Source: Microbispora sp. H13382 (GTDB lineage: Bacteria; Actinomycetota; Actinomycetes; Streptosporangiales; Streptosporangiaceae). Taken from it: a stretch of 64,000 nt of DNA. The DNA is taken from contig NZ_JABBXA010000001.1 in assembly GCF_014161445.1 (NCBI RefSeq), positions 620,001 to 684,000 of the forward strand, in the 5' to 3' direction. Made by a program: the position numbers and the translations under genes. Positions 31,411 to 38,923 of the stretch are shown here, one piece after another. Within the stretch, counting starts at the first letter, position 1, and each line of letters opens with the position of its first letter. The notes under the pieces are model-generated. The model was not told the DNA's origin. It did not search any database and saw nothing but the letters and a program-made list of their open reading frames with translations.

Positions 31411-32192
31411 GCCGGTCCCTCCGGGGTGACGCCCAGCGCGGTCAGCAGCGCCGCGCGCAGGGTGAGCAGGTCGGGGTGGTCGCGGTGCCGGGGGCGCGGG
31501 GCGGCGACGGTCCACTCGTGCGCCACGCGCCCGCCGTCGAGGACCAGGATCCGGTCGGCCAGCAGCAGCGCCTCGTCCACGTCGTGGGTCACCAGCAGCA
31601 CGGCCGGGCCGTGCGCCGCCCACAGGTCGAGCACCAGGCGGTGCACGGTGATCCGGGTCAGCGCGTCGAGCGCGCTGAACGGCTCGTCGAGCAGCAGCAG
31701 CCCCGGCTCGCGGACGAGGGCGCGGGCCAGGCTCGCCCGCTGCGCCTCGCCGCCGGACAGCGTCAGCGGCCACGCCTCGGCCCGCTCGGTCAGGCCCACC
31801 TCGGCCAGCGCCGCCTCCGCTCTGCTGACCGGGTCGGGCGCGGTCAGGCCGAGCGTGAGGTTGTCACGCACCCGCTTCCACGGCACCAGCCGGGGCTCCT
31901 GGAAGGCCACGGCCACCGAGCCCTCCACTTCCAGGCCGCCCTCGACCTCCTCGTCCAGGCCGGCGAGCGCGCGCAGCAGCGTCGACTTGCCCGAGCCGCT
32001 GCGGCCGAGGAGCGCGACGAACTCGCCGCGCCCGATCGTCAGGTCGAGGCCGTCGAGCACCGTGCGGTCGCCGAACCGGCGGGTGAGGCCGCGCACGGTT
32101 GCCTGCGCTGTGACGCTCGCAGGGACACTCACCGGGACACTGACCGGGACACTGACCGGGACACTCACCGGGACAGGAACTCGCGCCGCCAT
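31407..32192 (-). CDS. ssuB: Sulfonate ABC importer ATPase
   Basis: ATPase of the sulfonate importer, 261 residues from ATG 32192, with GGAGGG upstream. Walker A is GRSGSGKST, the signature LSGGEAQR, and Walker B LLLLDEP. Oddly, the first 24 residues are a run of PVSV units encoded by a 12-base tandem repeat. The conserved protein really starts around residue 28 (ATVRGLTRRFGDRTVL). A GTG inside this N-terminus could be an alternative start. The 5' end overlaps the end of ssuC by 28 bases, so the repeat also contains the ssuC stop codon. Confidence 0.9.
   Translation of the reverse strand: MAARVPVPVSVPVSVPVSVPVSVPASVTAQATVRGLTRRFGDRTVLDGLDLTIGRGEFVALLGRSGSGKSTLLRALAGLDEEVEGGLEVEGSVAVAFQEPRLVPWKRVRDNLTLGLTAPDPVSRAEAALAEVGLTERAEAWPLTLSGGEAQRASLARALVREPGLLLLDEPFSALDALTRITVHRLVLDLWAAHGPAVLLVTHDVDEALLLADRILVLDGGRVAHEWTVAAPRPRHRDHPDLLTLRAALLTALGVTPEGPA
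32122..32177 (-). repeat. 12-bp tandem repeat over the ssuC/ssuB junction
   Basis: Four full units alternating GGGACACTCACC and GGGACACTGACC, then a partial fifth, on the plus strand. They encode the Pro-Val-Ser-Val run at the N-terminus of SsuB and include the TGA of ssuC. Changes in copy number would lengthen SsuB by four residues per unit without changing its frame. Confidence 0.9.
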
Positions 32193-33013
32193 ACCAGTGC
32201 CCTCCTCTCCAGGAGCCGGACCAGGGCGTCGGTGAGCAGGCCGAGCGCGCTGTAGACCAGCAGGCCGACCACGATCACGTCGGTGCGCAGGAACTCCCGC
32301 GCGTCGTTGATCATGTAGCCGAGCCCGGCGTCGGCGTTGACCTGCTCGGCCACGATCAGCGCCAGCCAGGCCACGCCGAGGCTCTGCCGCAGCCCGACGA
32401 GCGTCTGGGGGAGCGCGCCGGGCAGCACGATGTGCCGCACGAGCGCGGCCCTGCCGAGCCTGAGCGTCCGGGCGACCTCGGCGAGCTTGCCGTCCACGCC
32501 CCGGATCCCCGCGAACGTGTTGAGGTAGAGCGGGAAGGAGACGGCGAGCGCCACCAGCAGCACCTTGGGCGTCTCCCCGATCCCGAACCAGAGGATGAAC
32601 AGCGGGATCAGCCCGAAGAACGGCAGCGCCCGGAGCATCTGCATGATCGGGTCGACGGCGTTCTCGCCGGCCCGGCTCAGCCCGGCGACCAGCGCGAGGC
32701 CGACGCCGGCGACCGCTCCGGCGGCGAAGCCGAGCAGCACCCGTTCGAGGGACACCGCGATCGCCGTGGGCAGCGTCCCGGTGCGCACGAGGTCGAGAGC
32801 GGTCGCGGCGATCTGCGACGGGGCGGCGAGCAGCCGGGCGGGCAGCAGCCCGGACGCGCTGGCGGCCTGCCACAGCAGCACGACGACGAGAGGGCTGACC
32901 CACCTCCTGTGCCACCCCTTGCCAGGGCCGCGGGCCGTGGCGGAGCGGGGGCGGGGCCGGGGATCGGCCCGGACCGCACCCCCGAATTCGCCCTCGAGTT
33001 CGGCGACGGACAT
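32165..33013 (-). CDS. ssuC: Sulfonate ABC importer permease
   Basis: Membrane permease of 282 residues and first gene of the operon. A hydrophilic, Arg/Pro-rich N-terminus precedes about six helices (first around WVSPLVVVLLWQAA). The EAA loop reads EVARTLRLGRAALVRHIVLPGALP. Start ATG 33013 (MSVAELEGEFG) follows GCGAGGTGTCTC; an in-frame ATG 12 codons upstream lacks support. Promoter elements lie about 60 bases before it. Confidence 0.9.
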   Translation of the reverse strand: MSVAELEGEFGGAVRADPRPRPRSATARGPGKGWHRRWVSPLVVVLLWQAASASGLLPARLLAAPSQIAATALDLVRTGTLPTAIAVSLERVLLGFAAGAVAGVGLALVAGLSRAGENAVDPIMQMLRALPFFGLIPLFILWFGIGETPKVLLVALAVSFPLYLNTFAGIRGVDGKLAEVARTLRLGRAALVRHIVLPGALPQTLVGLRQSLGVAWLALIVAEQVNADAGLGYMINDAREFLRTDVIVVGLLVYSALGLLTDALVRLLERRALVWRREFLSR

Positions 33014-33055
33014 GAGACACCTCGCAGACGACGAAGAAGGATTCGTCATCAGAGT

Positions 33056-34138: not shown

Positions 34139-35272
34139 ATGAGCACCGAGATCCGCCCATTCCGCATTGAGATCGCTTCGGCCGACCTGGACGACCTGAA
34201 CGACCGGCTGGACCGTGCCCGTTGGCCCCGTGAGCTGCCCGGCGACGGATGGAGCCGCGGCGTCCCCCACGCCTTCCTCCGGGAGCTCGCCCGCTACTGG
34301 CGCCAGGAGTACGACTGGCGCGCGCACGAGGCGCGGCTGAACGAGTTCCCGCAGTTCATGACCGAGATCGACGGTCAGGACATCCACTTCCTGCACGTAC
34401 GCTCGGCCGAGCCCGATGCTCTGCCGCTCGTCCTCACGCACGGCTGGCCGAACTCGTTCCTGGAGTTCACCGAGCTCATCGGCCGCCTCACCGACCCCCG
34501 TACGCACGGTGGCGACCCCGCCCGGGCGTTCCACGTCGTGGCGCCCTCCCTTCCGGGCTTCGGCTTCTCCGCGCCGCCTCGCGGCGCCGGCTGGACCGCG
34601 GCGCGCGTGGCGCGGACCTGGGCCGAGCTGATGCGCCGCCTCGGCTACGAGCGGTACGGCGCGCAGGGCGGGGACTTCGGGGCCTACGTCGCCCCGGAGG
34701 TGGCCAAGGCGGCGCCGGGCAACGTGACCGGCGTCTACATCGTCAGCGGTCTCGGGTTCCCCACGGAGAAGGACCTTCCGGAGATGACCGAGGACGAGCG
34801 GGCGGCCTACGCCCGGTTGATGGAACAGGACTGGATGAACGGCGTCGACCACCACGCGCTGCTGCGCGCGGCGCCGCAGACCTTCACGTACGGATGGCAC
34901 GACTCGCCGCTCGCGGCACTGGCCTGGATGACCCAGAAGTTCCACGAGTTCAACGCCTCGGGCAGGCCTCTAGAGAAGGCGATCGACCGGGACCTGTTCC
35001 TGACCAATGTGAGCCTGTACTGGTTCACCGGGACGTTCGGGACGTCGGCGTGGCCGTACTACGAGAGCACCGGCTTCGGCTGGCCGGAGGGCCAGACGGT
35101 CGCGCCGACCGGCGTGTACAGCGGCCCGCCCGGCATCCGCCGGCTCGCCGAACGCCACAACACCATCCTCCACTGGCCCGAGGACAACCCGGGTGGCCAC
35201 CACTTCATCGCGATGGACCAGCCGGATCGCCTCGCCGCCGACATCGGCGCGTTCTTCTCCAAGGTGGGCTGA
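34139..35272 (+). CDS. Epoxide hydrolase (EHN-type alpha/beta hydrolase)
   Basis: A 377-residue cytosolic enzyme with the N-terminal epoxide-hydrolase domain ([23 protein letters not shown]) and an alpha/beta hydrolase fold. The oxyanion motif is HGWPNSF, the nucleophile aspartate is in AQGGDFGAY, and the base histidine lies in GGHHFIAM near the end. It would open epoxides to diols; whether this is detoxification or a catabolic step cannot be told. ATG 34139 follows GGGAGAG. It is divergently transcribed from the WYL regulator, which probably controls it. Confidence 0.9.
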
Positions 35273-35305
35273 CCGGGGCGGCCCGGCCGCGTCCCGTGGC
35301 GGAGG

Positions 35306-35893
35306 TCAGCTCGTGCCCGGGATGGTGACGTTCTGCTCCTTGAACCCGTAGCCGGTCTTCGACGCGTCGCGCTGCAGGCCCTCCATCGAGCTCTTGCCGG
35401 CGTCGACGTCGGACGCCGTCGCGGTGCCGTTCTGCAGCTTGCCGGTCAGCGCGGAGAACTGGTCGCTCACGCCCTGGACGGCCCTGCACAACGTCGGATT
35501 GGCCGCGGCGAAGCCCTTGGCGACCTTCAGCTGGTGCAGGGCGAAGGCGCCGGCGATCGCGGCCTTGGCGATCGTACGCTTGCGTTTCTCCGCTCCGGCC
35601 TTGAAACCGCCGCTGCGCAGTGGTTTGTAGATGTAGCGGTGGAAGGCGCCGAGGGCGAGACCCGCGTGCAGCGCGAACCGGGTCTTGGCGAACCGCTTGG
35701 CGTTGCCGCCGGCCGGGCACGGCGAGTTGTACTCGGTCTCGGCCGCGGTCGGCGTGACGAGCGCCGCGGGGCCGGCCACGGCGGCGTGCTCTGGCGCCGG
35801 GGCGGTGGTGCCGCCGCAGCCGACGAGCAGCGCCATCGTCAGCGCGGCCGCCGCCGCGAGTGCGGTAACGGATCGGACAGTTCGTGCGTTCAT
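35306..35893 (-). CDS. Lipoprotein of unknown function
   Basis: A 195-residue protein whose signal peptide ends in a lipobox (LLVGC, cysteine about 26), so it is a surface lipoprotein. The mature part has an Ala/Pro-rich linker, then a basic helical domain with FHRYIYKPLRSGGFKAG and AIAGAFALHQLKVAKGF, and two further cysteines (in NSPCPAG and NPTLCRAV) that could form a disulfide. I recall similar lipoproteins in streptomycetes but no function. It is divergent from the cysteine-rich peptide gene across about 340 bases, which hints at but does not prove a link. Confidence 0.75.
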   Translation of the reverse strand: MNARTVRSVTALAAAAALTMALLVGCGGTTAPAPEHAAVAGPAALVTPTAAETEYNSPCPAGGNAKRFAKTRFALHAGLALGAFHRYIYKPLRSGGFKAGAEKRKRTIAKAAIAGAFALHQLKVAKGFAAANPTLCRAVQGVSDQFSALTGKLQNGTATASDVDAGKSSMEGLQRDASKTGYGFKEQNVTIPGTS

Positions 35894-36230
35894 CGTTTCC
35901 CCCCCGTGGACGCTGTGGACACCGGACGCTGTGGTCGCGGCGAGTGCGCGTCCCGGGCGACGGTTGCCGCCCTGCTGCCGACTATGCGGGCTTTTGCCGG
36001 GTTGAGGCGCTTTTCATGCCGTGGTCGGACGGACATTTGGCCGCCGCCTCACGGTTCGCGAAGGGACCGGGCCGCCATTCACCGATCCATGCCAATGGCG
36101 GGATGGGGATTCACATCGAATTTTTCCGGCGGTGGGCGATGGGCTGGACGCATCCCCGAAGCGATTCGGACAATGGGGGAGGAACCACTCGATCCGCCGC
36201 ATCGCGGCCTGATCGGAGAGGAGAAAGGCC
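35894..36230. other. Gene-free divergent region, lipoprotein / cysteine-rich peptide
   Basis: About 337 bases without a supportable gene. The half nearest the peptide gene (36010-36200) is less GC-rich than the surroundings, with short AT patches such as ATCGAATTTTTCC near 36115-36128. I see no consensus promoter hexamers with correct spacing. It must contain the promoters of both divergent genes. Confidence 0.5.
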
Positions 36231-36470
36231 ATGCGAGGTGGGCGATTCAGCATGGTCATCGGTTCGGCGCTGCTCGGCACGGTCGCGCTCTGGCCGGCGG
36301 CGTCGCCGTCGGTGTCGGCGTCCACGGGCGCCGCCGGCGCCGCGGTCGCGCAGGCGGCTCCCGGCGATTCATACGCGAAGCCGAAGCCGCCCAAGTGCAC
36401 CTACCGATGCACGAACCACCGTAAGTACAAATGCTGTCCCAAGTGCACGCGAGTAAAGGGGAAGTGCTGA
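36231..36470 (+). CDS. Secreted cysteine-rich cationic mini-protein
   Basis: A 79-residue precursor starting ATG 36231 behind a strong AGGAGAAAGG. A signal peptide (residues 1-42) runs to a clear AxA site (AQA before APGDS). The predicted mature part, about 37 residues, has six cysteines in the pattern C-x3-C-x7-C-C-x2-C-x6-C ending on the last residue. It has roughly eight lysines and three arginines against one acidic residue. This looks like a disulfide-stabilised cationic peptide (defensin or toxin-like); metal binding is the main alternative. I do not recognise the family. Codons such as AAA, AAG and GTA make its end less GC-rich than its neighbours, hinting at different ancestry. No modification or export genes adjoin it. 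Confidence 0.72.
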   Translation: MRGGRFSMVIGSALLGTVALWPAASPSVSASTGAAGAAVAQAAPGDSYAKPKPPKCTYRCTNHRKYKCCPKCTRVKGKC

Positions 36471-36571
36471 GGGACGTCCGGCCATGACGGCCCGGAGGGA
36501 CGCCAGGCGTTTCTCCGGCCGCCGTGGCGCCGGGGGCGGGCGGCGACGAGGTCGTGGCCCGCGCCCCGGGT

Positions 36572-36598
36572 TATGCTCGCTCCCGGACACGGGAGGGG
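36572..36598 (+). promoter_or_regulatory. DUF4031 gene promoter and ribosome binding site
   Basis: TATGCT at 36572-36577 is a good -10 element, and GGGAGGGG at 36591-36598 is the ribosome binding site 3 bases before ATG 36602. The transcript would start near 36584. Confidence 0.5.
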
Positions 36599-36601
36599 TG
36601 C

Positions 36602-36880
36602 ATGGCGGTGCTGATCGACCGGCCGAACTGGCCGGGGCCCCGGGGGCTGCTGTGGTCCCACCTGGTCAGCGACTCCTCGCTGGAGGAGTTGCACGATTTC
36701 GCCCGTCTGCTCGGCGTGCCCGTGCGGGCCTTCGACCGGGACCACTACGACGTGCCGGAGACGGTCTACGACCGGGCCGTGGTCCTCGGGGCCGAGCCCG
36801 TCGGCAGTCAGGAACTGGTGCGCCGCCTGCGGGAGGCCGGCCTGCGACGGCCGAAGACCCGTTCGAGATCTACGCTGTAA
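36602..36880 (+). CDS. DUF4031 domain protein
   Basis: A 92-residue protein matching the DUF4031 pattern as I remember it: MAVLIDRPNWPGPRG near the start, LWSHLVSDSSLEELHDFA, then HYDVPE and the end RRLREAGL. The function of the family is unknown, although conserved Asp, His and Trp residues suggest a small enzyme. ATG 36602 is set by GGGAGGGG just upstream. It converges with an HD-domain gene 28 bases downstream. From memory, these two families are often neighbours, which suggests a shared nucleotide- or phosphate-related job. Confidence 0.82.
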   Translation: MAVLIDRPNWPGPRGLLWSHLVSDSSLEELHDFARLLGVPVRAFDRDHYDVPETVYDRAVVLGAEPVGSQELVRRLREAGLRRPKTRSRSTL

Positions 36881-36908
36881 AGGCGTGCGGCCGGTCATCG
36901 GACGAGGT

Positions 36909-37541
36909 TCACGCCGCGCCTCGGTCGCAGAGGCGGGCCAGCTCCCCGGCGAGGTTCTCGCGCGCCCGCCGCTCCCACAGGTCGCGGCCCACGGGAGTGC
37001 CGAACAGGCGGGGCTTGCCGAGCAGCCCCCGAAGCACCGCGGCCCGTCCGGCCCGGAAGGCGTCGTCCGGCACGTGCCGGTACTCCTCGCGTACGGCCCT
37101 CGTGTACGCCCCGTACGCCCCGGGCGGCGCCGCGAGGATCGCCAGGTCGGCGTCGCACAGTACGGCCGCGTTCACGTCGCCGGGCTCGTAGGCGTGCCCC
37201 GCCGTCAGCCGCACGAGCCGGGCGACCTCCCGCACCCGCTCCGCCGGCAGGCCGCAGGCGGGCAGCCGGGCCTGGGCGAGCTGGGCGCTGCGCTCCTCGT
37301 CCCACCCCGGCCGCCCGTCGTAGACGGCGTCGTGGAACCACGCGGCCAGCCGTACGGCGCCGGGGTCCTCCGCCTGGGCGCCGAGCGGCTCGATCGCGGT
37401 GAGGACCGCCCGCAGGTGAGCGGTCGTGTGGTAGCGCCGGTGCGGCTCCGCCCAGCGGGCGGCCAGTTCGGCGGCGAGGGCCCGCCCGGCCGGCGAGCGC
37501 GTGAGGCGGGCGGGCGGCGCCGGAGTCTGATCGTCGCTCAC
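36909..37541 (-). CDS. HD-domain metal-dependent phosphohydrolase
   Basis: A 210-residue soluble protein of the predicted HD phosphohydrolase type. Metal-binding positions are seen as RYHTTAHL (about residues 36-43), WFHDAVYDG with the HD pair (about 68-76), and DADLAIL further on. Substrate unknown; relatives act on nucleotides or other phosphates. ATG 37541. It is convergent to the DUF4031 gene and lies 35 bases from the end of the exporter gene on the same strand. Confidence 0.82.
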   Translation of the reverse strand: MSDDQTPAPPARLTRSPAGRALAAELAARWAEPHRRYHTTAHLRAVLTAIEPLGAQAEDPGAVRLAAWFHDAVYDGRPGWDEERSAQLAQARLPACGLPAERVREVARLVRLTAGHAYEPGDVNAAVLCDADLAILAAPPGAYGAYTRAVREEYRHVPDDAFRAGRAAVLRGLLGKPRLFGTPVGRDLWERRARENLAGELARLCDRGAA

Positions 37542-37576
37542 GCTCCGACCCTAAGCGCCCGGGCACGGCGTGGGCT

Positions 37577-38923
37577 TCAGGCCGTGCGGGCCGCGCGCTC
37601 GCGGACGAGGCCGGAAGCCGCCGCGACGAGCGCGAGGACGGCGACCGCGCAGCCGTACACGGTGGCCGTGGCCCGCAGGCCGAGCGACGGCACCGCGAGC
37701 CCCGCCGCGACCGCGGGCAGGCTGAAGGCGAGGTAGCTGACGACGTAGACGGACGCGAACAGCCCGGCCCGCTCGGCGGGCCCCGCCAGCGCCGCGAGCG
37801 AGCGGAACGCGCCGAGGGAGGCGCTGCCGAACCCGCAGCCCGCGACGACCGTGCCGGCGAAGAACAGCGGCGTGGACGCGGCCTCGAGCGCCGCCAGGGT
37901 GAGGCCGGCGCCGGCGGCGAGCACGAGCGACCCGCCCGCCATGACCCGTGGCGCCGGCAGGTCGCGCACGACCAGTGACGCCACGGCCCCGGCGGCGGTG
38001 AGCGCGGTGACGACGAGCCCGCCGACCAGGTGGTCGGGAATGCGCAGGACGCCCGCCGTGAGCGAGCCGCCCAGCGACAGGTAGAGCCCGCCCATCGCCC
38101 ACGTGGCGACCAGGCAGGGGGCGGCCGCCGCGAACGCGCCGCGGGCGGGCCGTGGCACGGCCACCCGCGGGCGCAGTGACACGAGCGCGTCCCGGCCCCT
38201 GCCGGGACGGGGCGCGACCGGCTCGGGCAGCAGCGTCGTCGCGGCCGCGAGCAGCGCGAAGACGGCCGTGAGCAGGACGAAGATCGCCGTCGTCGGGGTC
38301 GCGGTGTAACGCACGAACAGTCCCGCGCCGAGCGCCCCCGCGGCCAGGCCGCCGGCCGGCGTGACGCTGTTGACCAGCGCGCCCAGTTGACGGACGCGGT
38401 GCGATCCCGGCTGCAGGTCCACCAGGCCCGCGCTGATCGCGCCCATCGCCGCGCCGGTGGCCAGGCCCTGCACGGCCCTGGCCAGCAGCAGCGGCCCGAC
38501 GCCGTCCGCGGTCAGGAACGCGACCATGGCGGCCGCCTCGGCCAGCAGGGCCGCGATCAGCACGGGCCGCCTGCCGACGTGGTCGGACAGCCCGCCGACG
38601 GTGAGCAGCGCGATCAGCAGCGCGAGGGCGTAGACCGCGAAGACGGCGGTCAGCGTGGCCGCCGAGAACCCCCAGCGCTGCTGGTAGATCACGTACAGGG
38701 GAGAGGGGGCGCTCGCGGCGACCATGAAGGCCACCAAGGTCCCGGCGAGCAGCCAGAAGCCGGCCCTGCCCGACATCCGGCCACGAGACCTCGTCCCCGC
38801 CGCGGCCGGCACACCGCCGGTCGCGTCGTCGCCCCGCCCGGGTGCGGGGCCCGGCGTTCGCGGGTCCTGATCCGCCTCCAGGATGTTCGCCGGCGTCGCG
38901 CGGTCCCCCGATGTCGTCATCAC
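37577..38923 (-). CDS. Major facilitator superfamily exporter
   Basis: A 448-residue membrane protein with about 12 hydrophobic helices after a hydrophilic N-terminus of 50 residues. The MFS loop motif GGLSDHVGRRPVLI is between helices 2 and 3, and the antiporter-like motif GLATGAAMGAISAG is present. It probably exports a small molecule or drug; the substrate is unknown. It is divergent from an ArsR regulator gene, and the intervening 103 bases carry repeated operator-like sites, so the regulator very likely represses this gene. Confidence 0.88.
   Translation of the reverse strand: MMTTSGDRATPANILEADQDPRTPGPAPGRGDDATGGVPAAAGTRSRGRMSGRAGFWLLAGTLVAFMVAASAPSPLYVIYQQRWGFSAATLTAVFAVYALALLIALLTVGGLSDHVGRRPVLIAALLAEAAAMVAFLTADGVGPLLLARAVQGLATGAAMGAISAGLVDLQPGSHRVRQLGALVNSVTPAGGLAAGALGAGLFVRYTATPTTAIFVLLTAVFALLAAATTLLPEPVAPRPGRGRDALVSLRPRVAVPRPARGAFAAAAPCLVATWAMGGLYLSLGGSLTAGVLRIPDHLVGGLVVTALTAAGAVASLVVRDLPAPRVMAGGSLVLAAGAGLTLAALEAASTPLFFAGTVVAGCGFGSASLGAFRSLAALAGPAERAGLFASVYVVSYLAFSLPAVAAGLAVPSLGLRATATVYGCAVAVLALVAAASGLVRERAARTA

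Follow-up and report, generated by a model that had tools for sequence, protein, structure and literature searches.

A conserved six-cysteine peptide gene of Microbispora shares its promoter-like block, leader and predicted signal peptide with genes for unrelated mature proteins

What might a small, strongly cationic, cysteine-rich protein do in Microbispora, and is the short open reading frame that would encode it a gene at all? The frame lies in the window, by which we mean the whole stretch of 64,000 nucleotides that was analysed, part of the 8.7-Mb genome of Microbispora sp. H13382 (G000). It starts with ATG on the forward strand (36231..36470) and encodes a 79-residue precursor, assigned as a six-Cys cationic secreted peptide from the frame itself, its orthologues and their alignment. 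As a preliminary description had claimed, a Shine-Dalgarno sequence, GGAGAGGAG (36215-36223), precedes the frame, and the precursor ends in a six-Cys core, C-x3-C-x7-CC-x2-C-x6-C (36396..36467, forward strand), with spacings of 3, 7, 0, 2 and 6 residues and Cys as the final residue. The net charge of about +10 given there agrees with the ~+9.8 computed at pH 7 for the last 37 residues of the precursor.

The frame is a genuine gene, conserved far beyond chance. The homologue search that had been proposed for the precursor, run on 149 relatives with the window's genome included, returned full-length orthologues in 14 of the 15 Microbispora genomes; G004, the one left, gave no six-Cys peptide match. 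Matches at E <= 0.1 came from 103 of the 149 genomes, and those left unread are mostly partial and weak and were taken as low-complexity noise. A 15-row profile matched at E <= 0.001 in 42 of 341 genomes of the family, beyond the genus mostly through the signal peptide only; full six-Cys members outside Microbispora are those of G036, G287 and G288, all from one genus (g23), the G288 copy being frame-shifted (L030, L087). The peptide is found in 17 genomes in total, 14 from Microbispora and three from g23, and G014 has a second, divergent copy (L044). All six Cys, along with one Pro, one His and one Gly, stay the same in every one of 17 aligned mature sequences, among them row L030, for which the mature frame of the frame-shifted gene was used. 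A mature-only profile run on 296 genomes from the class matched eight at E <= 0.01; five are Microbispora, with E below 1e-16, and the other three matches (E 0.0016-0.0091) are short, partial, from other families and taken as noise. Absences in these searches, which score a limited number of candidates per genome, are provisional. In an rpoB tree of 13 genomes, G004 branches outside the other Microbispora, of which five were included; the lack of both the peptide and the VTESRPVT-repeat protein described below in G004 may therefore be ancestral rather than a joint loss. Two rpoB copies are present in G004, G010, G071, G287, G288, G298 and G374, and in G000 contig ends fall within rpoB.

The mature part is under purifying selection, conserved and not diversifying. 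In a comparison of 12 Microbispora orthologues, pS is 0.46 and pN 0.07 for the last 28 codons (pN/pS 0.15), no amino-acid change falls in codons -21 to -15 counted from the end, and the first 22 codons have pN/pS 1.05 with pS 0.11. The low pS of those first codons is not taken for an RNA signal: their codon bias is different (GC3 0.83 versus 0.75 in the mature part) and neighbouring genes are also low, at ~0.2 (0.22 for a stretch of the lipoprotein gene and 0.20 for the DUF4031 gene, nine orthologues). Such strong constraint suggests a housekeeping rather than an arms-race pattern. The coding end had been described as using A/T-rich codons unlike its neighbours, which is only mildly true: GC3 of the mature part is 0.78, against 0.92 for the lipoprotein, 0.93 for an epoxide hydrolase and 0.94 for both a 210-residue neighbour and the DUF4031 gene, and the orthologues have the same lowered level (0.75), so recent import is not indicated. 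A mobile origin was considered and set aside, with no match to the peptide in 72,556 plasmid records or 50,697 phage records. The mature end (36396-36467) combines lower GC3 with higher pS (0.46 over the last 28 codons) than the two neighbouring genes.

The export signal that had been proposed stands, but its AxA cleavage site and 37-residue mature part probably do not. From conservation, the signal peptide would comprise residues 1-30 (36231..36320, forward strand), with cleavage proposed at SVSA|ST. Signal-peptide cleavage usually follows the -3/-1 rule, and the residues preceding Ala30 fit it in most rows of the 15-row alignment. Since Ala30 is at least 90% conserved in that alignment and a later VAQA|APGD site varies more among the orthologues, cleavage after Ala30 is more likely, which would give a mature peptide of ~49 rather than 37 residues, probably a flexible arm followed by the 24-residue Cys core.

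The new finding here, overlooked by the preliminary description, lies in the 5' part of the gene: its predicted promoter, leader and signal peptide are common to putatively secreted proteins with unrelated mature parts. On the forward strand, a promoter-like block, TGGACG-N18-GACAAT (36145..36174), is followed by an inverted repeat in the presumed 5' UTR, GCCGC-ATC-GCGGC (36196..36208), and by TGATCGGAGAGGAG (36210..36223), which includes the Shine-Dalgarno sequence and is conserved in large part. An RNA element upstream of the peptide was rejected, as there is no Rfam match in 35000-37600 and the inverted repeat shows no excess folding energy (z 0.96). With a 19-row profile of the signal peptide, 73 of 341 family genomes, from 18 of 68 genera, have matches at E <= 0.001, a count that includes the weakest, unread matches. 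In each of the 14 peptide-bearing Microbispora genomes it finds the peptide gene and a second gene with a long open frame, g23 genomes have four to seven matches each, and G004 yields no match at all, neither the peptide nor the repeat protein described below. The leader-sharing proteins that were read belong to six types: six-Cys, four-Cys, VTESRPVT, His/Arg, RERF/MRDRH and YRDGYR.

The promoter-like block accompanies most, though not all, of these types. Its relaxed form, T[GA]GA[CT]G-N16..19-VACNAT, lies 70-104 nt before the ATG in 38 of 54 classed genes, where shuffles predict 0.06 of 54; the 54 leave out L034, L155 and the false pick L024 (230 aa) and include the false pick L018 (164 aa, a lipoprotein fragment), and with both false picks included the count is 40 of all 57 genes. 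It is present in the six-Cys (16/16), VTESRPVT (11/12), RERF/MRDRH (7/7) and His/Arg (4/4) genes and absent from the YRDGYR (0/8, one a false pick) and four-Cys (0/7) genes. The pattern was derived from the upstream regions of the six-Cys and VTESRPVT genes and L034, so that the RERF/MRDRH and His/Arg genes (11/11) are out of sample, though from one genus. Four of seven further genes have it as well (three of six VTESRPVT genes and a Gly-rich one), which brings the VTESRPVT genes to 14 of 18; the four misses (L139, L210, L213, L214) read CAAGGAT versus CAACGAT or GAACGAT elsewhere in the genus. A strict form, TGGACG-N18-RACRAT, has two sites in the G000 genome, before the peptide gene and before the repeat-protein gene, and its backwards control has one match there. 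The strict form has no site in G001 or G004, and its single site in G036 and five in G287 are off-target, none at leader genes. A longer pattern running from promoter to Shine-Dalgarno sequence has a single match in G000, the peptide gene.

The VTESRPVT-repeat protein, 348-384 residues long, was found in all 14 peptide-bearing Microbispora genomes. In G000 it has 353 residues and a sole Cys third from the C-terminus, and is encoded outside the window on the reverse strand (L002:571-1629; contig C20 near 68,805), sharing promoter block, leader and signal peptide with the six-Cys gene. The sole Cys lies within the last three residues in 16 of 18 such proteins (14 from Microbispora, g1, and two from g35), and those of G285 and G073 have theirs mid-chain; the terminal Cys makes a disulfide link to the peptide imaginable, no more. 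Many leader-sharing relatives are low-complexity, charged proteins, and His-rich proteins are among those with the shared 5' module. In g23, L046, L154, L160 and others encode secreted RERF/MRDRH and His/Arg repeat proteins with the module; in a Pfam scan of L046, L154 and L034, only L046 matched, far below the cut-off. The Gly-rich gene, L216 (G013 contig C15), is a third leader-sharing gene with the promoter block present.

The shared 5' module may reflect common descent or functional constraint. A broader proposition, which we consider possible but put forward with some doubt, is that Streptosporangiaceae couple one promoter-leader-signal-peptide cassette to many unrelated mature parts, so that cassette reuse would yield a co-expressed extracellular kit in the manner of venom-type precursors. 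The mature parts so coupled would be the six-Cys, VTESRPVT, His/Arg and RERF/MRDRH repeat types, with the four-Cys and YRDGYR types joined by signal peptide only.

Facing the peptide gene is a gene for a lipoprotein of 195 residues (35306..35893, reverse strand), a conserved neighbour with a predicted helical bundle and conserved Cys59 and Cys136. Its linkage to the peptide, which had been left for checking, is genuine: the two occur together in 14 of the 17 peptide genomes, side by side in two contexts and two orientations, divergent in 12 Microbispora genomes and convergent in two of g23. The g23 loci have no other DNA match over 250 nt to the window's 26-48 kb, and the DNA around the G287 pair matches that of G075 (g62), where the lipoprotein stands without a peptide, so the pair sits together in two genomic contexts. 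The three exceptions differ. In G014, which also has no detected epoxide hydrolase, ~0.7 kb replaces 3.1 kb of the window; in G002 the peptide is located elsewhere; in G288 the peptide gene is the frame-shifted one. The lipoprotein was, however, also suggested to be an immunity partner, and a dedicated role of that kind is rejected on its distribution, since 54 of the 68 family genomes that encode it (of 341; 15 genera) have no detected six-Cys peptide and only 14 do. A scripted filter found no six-Cys ORF within 1.5 kb of 16 lipoprotein loci outside the two genera. The two extra Cys ascribed to it are well founded, aligning together with the lipobox in all 29 homologues read (30 loci fetched). 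Its model has pLDDT 76 overall and at least 90 in 119 of 195 residues, and no PDB structure matched at E <= 0.001. These proteins form an uncatalogued family, marked by a FAKTRFALHAGLALGAFHRYIYKPL stretch of high conservation and, outside the lipobox, by two conserved Cys.

The peptide is likewise uncatalogued, belonging, as had been thought, to no recognised family. In Pfam, NCBIfam, PADLOC and PHROGs nothing came close to a curated cut-off for the peptide (the best Pfam E was 0.14 with the window protein and 0.07 with one of 15 orthologues), Pfam found no chaplin domain in it or in the leader-sharing proteins scanned, the best PDB hit (E 0.38) fell on the Ala-rich arm, the mature profile had no PDB match at E up to 10, and no title listed in searches of the open-licence PubMed Central library pointed to this peptide. 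Structure prediction, another check that had been suggested, gave a partial answer: two strands and no helix in the AlphaFold model, at a low pLDDT of 61.

The best explanation, which we hold tentatively, is a cationic, disulfide-locked peptide of the extracellular surface or matrix, co-exported with the repeat protein. The strongly cationic peptide would be exported by Sec, stabilised by disulfides and active outside the cell, most likely attached to anionic polymers on the producer's own envelope or on the surface of its aerial hyphae, where it would belong to an extracellular coat or matrix. Its promoter, 5' leader and signal-peptide module would be the ones that serve the VTESRPVT-repeat protein, and peptide and repeat protein are probably exported together; secretion, cleavage at Ala30, disulfides, co-expression and surface binding are all inferred. 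At the membrane, the lipoprotein might act on the peptide as an anchor or as a folding or trafficking aid, but this is a guess. Constraint, near genus-wide presence and charged, repetitive secreted company point to a structural or surface role. Against it stand the hydrophilic character of the peptide, unlike chaplins, its weak AlphaFold model, the two genomes (G002, G014) in which the peptide occurs and the lipoprotein does not, the possibly ancestral absence of peptide and repeat protein from G004, and the off-target sites and misses of the promoter patterns.

Antimicrobial activity is common among cationic, Cys-rich secreted peptides; a surface role is at least as likely as a toxic one. The peptide could be a defensin-like bacteriocin directed at the membranes or cell-wall precursors of competing bacteria, against which the lipoprotein would help to protect the producer; we regard this main rival as possible but less likely. 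The charge, the six Cys and the linked lipoprotein fit it, as does G288, which lacks a detected lipoprotein and has the frame-shifted peptide gene. The defensin reading first proposed is not supported. Cis-defensins of the CS-alpha-beta type have an exact pattern of C-x3-C plus CxC; C-x3-C is present in the window peptide, but CxC is not, and L020, L021, L028 and L044 fail the pattern too, and membership of the bacterial cis-defensins was rejected on these grounds. The fold of that family combines an alpha-helix with two strands, and the low-confidence AlphaFold model of our peptide (pLDDT 61) shows two strands and no helix. Work on that family describes a CSH motif and a GXC gamma-core between two strands (PMC11561630). 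The sole GXC within our Cys core is the terminal GKC, with no residue after it. That such peptides exist in actinobacteria is shown by actifensin, a defensin-like bacteriocin of 37 residues from another member of the group, whose description places ABC transporter genes directly beside the peptide gene and a protease gene nearby (PMC6989792). The Microbispora gene is instead flanked by those for the lipoprotein and the DUF4031 protein, with the epoxide hydrolase and the 210-residue protein, which has no Pfam match, next out. Among eight neighbours scanned there is no protease, and no transporter directly beside the peptide gene; an ABC permease (32165-33049) lies 3.2 kb upstream, past a WYL regulator and the epoxide hydrolase, and an MFS transporter at 37577-38923. 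Mature parts that are near-identical across the genus rather than variable copies, the 54 genomes with lipoprotein alone and the two with peptide alone also argue against an antimicrobial.

It is improbable that the peptide inhibits a protease or another secreted enzyme in the manner of a knottin. Knottins and conotoxins of framework VI-VII have the Cys order C-C-CC-C-C; knottins pair C1-C4, C2-C5 and C3-C6 and follow the spacing C-x3..7-C-x3..8-C-x0..7-C-x1..4-C-x4..13-C. The order is that of our peptide and the spacing fits the window protein, L020 and L021, but the 8-residue C4-C5 loop of L028 (g23) and the paralogue L044 falls outside the rule, and the mature profile's lack of any PDB match also speaks against it. 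The four-Cys relatives L024, L048, L049 and L053 align at C2, C3, C4 and C5 and jointly lack C1 and C6, hinting, if the alignment is right, at a C1-C6 disulfide plus two among C2-C5, which argues against cystine-knot pairing. A serious caveat is that the hhalign match between the mature parts of the two types is weak (E 0.012, probability 3.6%, 11 columns), leaving the signal peptide and a similar C-x6..7-CC spacing as the grounds for their kinship. Still less probable is a metal-binding extracellular peptide with CxxxC, the invariant His and CCxxC as ligands: His63 is invariant in 15 six-Cys rows and His-rich proteins have the same module, but exported thiols are expected to oxidise and His63 has no counterpart in the four-Cys relatives. 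That the frame is a chance or decaying one, for which the frame-shifted G288 member might be cited, is already refuted by its conservation (14 of 15 genus genomes, pN/pS 0.15, invariant Cys) and has next to no probability left.

From these results, a bacterial group noted for its antibiotics and complex development gains a conserved family of disulfide-rich peptides, and the genes that have one 5' module in common form a short list. Like actifensin and the cis-defensins, the Microbispora peptide is small, cationic, predicted to be secreted, has six Cys and comes from an actinobacterium; it differs from them in its Cys order, with an internal CC and no CxC, in having no adjoining ABC transporter and in a signal peptide common to unrelated proteins. 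With knottins and conotoxins of framework VI-VII it has Cys order and, in the Microbispora members tested (the window protein, L020 and L021), spacing in common, but the long C4-C5 loop of L028 and L044, the C1-C6 bond suggested by Cys loss and the missing PDB sequence match set it apart. The chaplins and rodlins of Streptomyces are families of small secreted proteins of mycelial actinomycetes (PMC4255298). The Microbispora set resembles them in this, and in the surface role guessed here, whereas its leader-sharing proteins are charged, Cys-rich or repeat-rich. Conotoxin-type precursor superfamilies combine a conserved signal peptide with a variable mature part. The leader-sharing set likewise has one conserved signal peptide on mature parts unrelated in sequence, but it is bacterial, its orthologous mature parts are constrained rather than hypervariable, and promoter and leader are common too; if cassette reuse is true, bacteria too assemble sets of secreted proteins from one start module and unrelated products.
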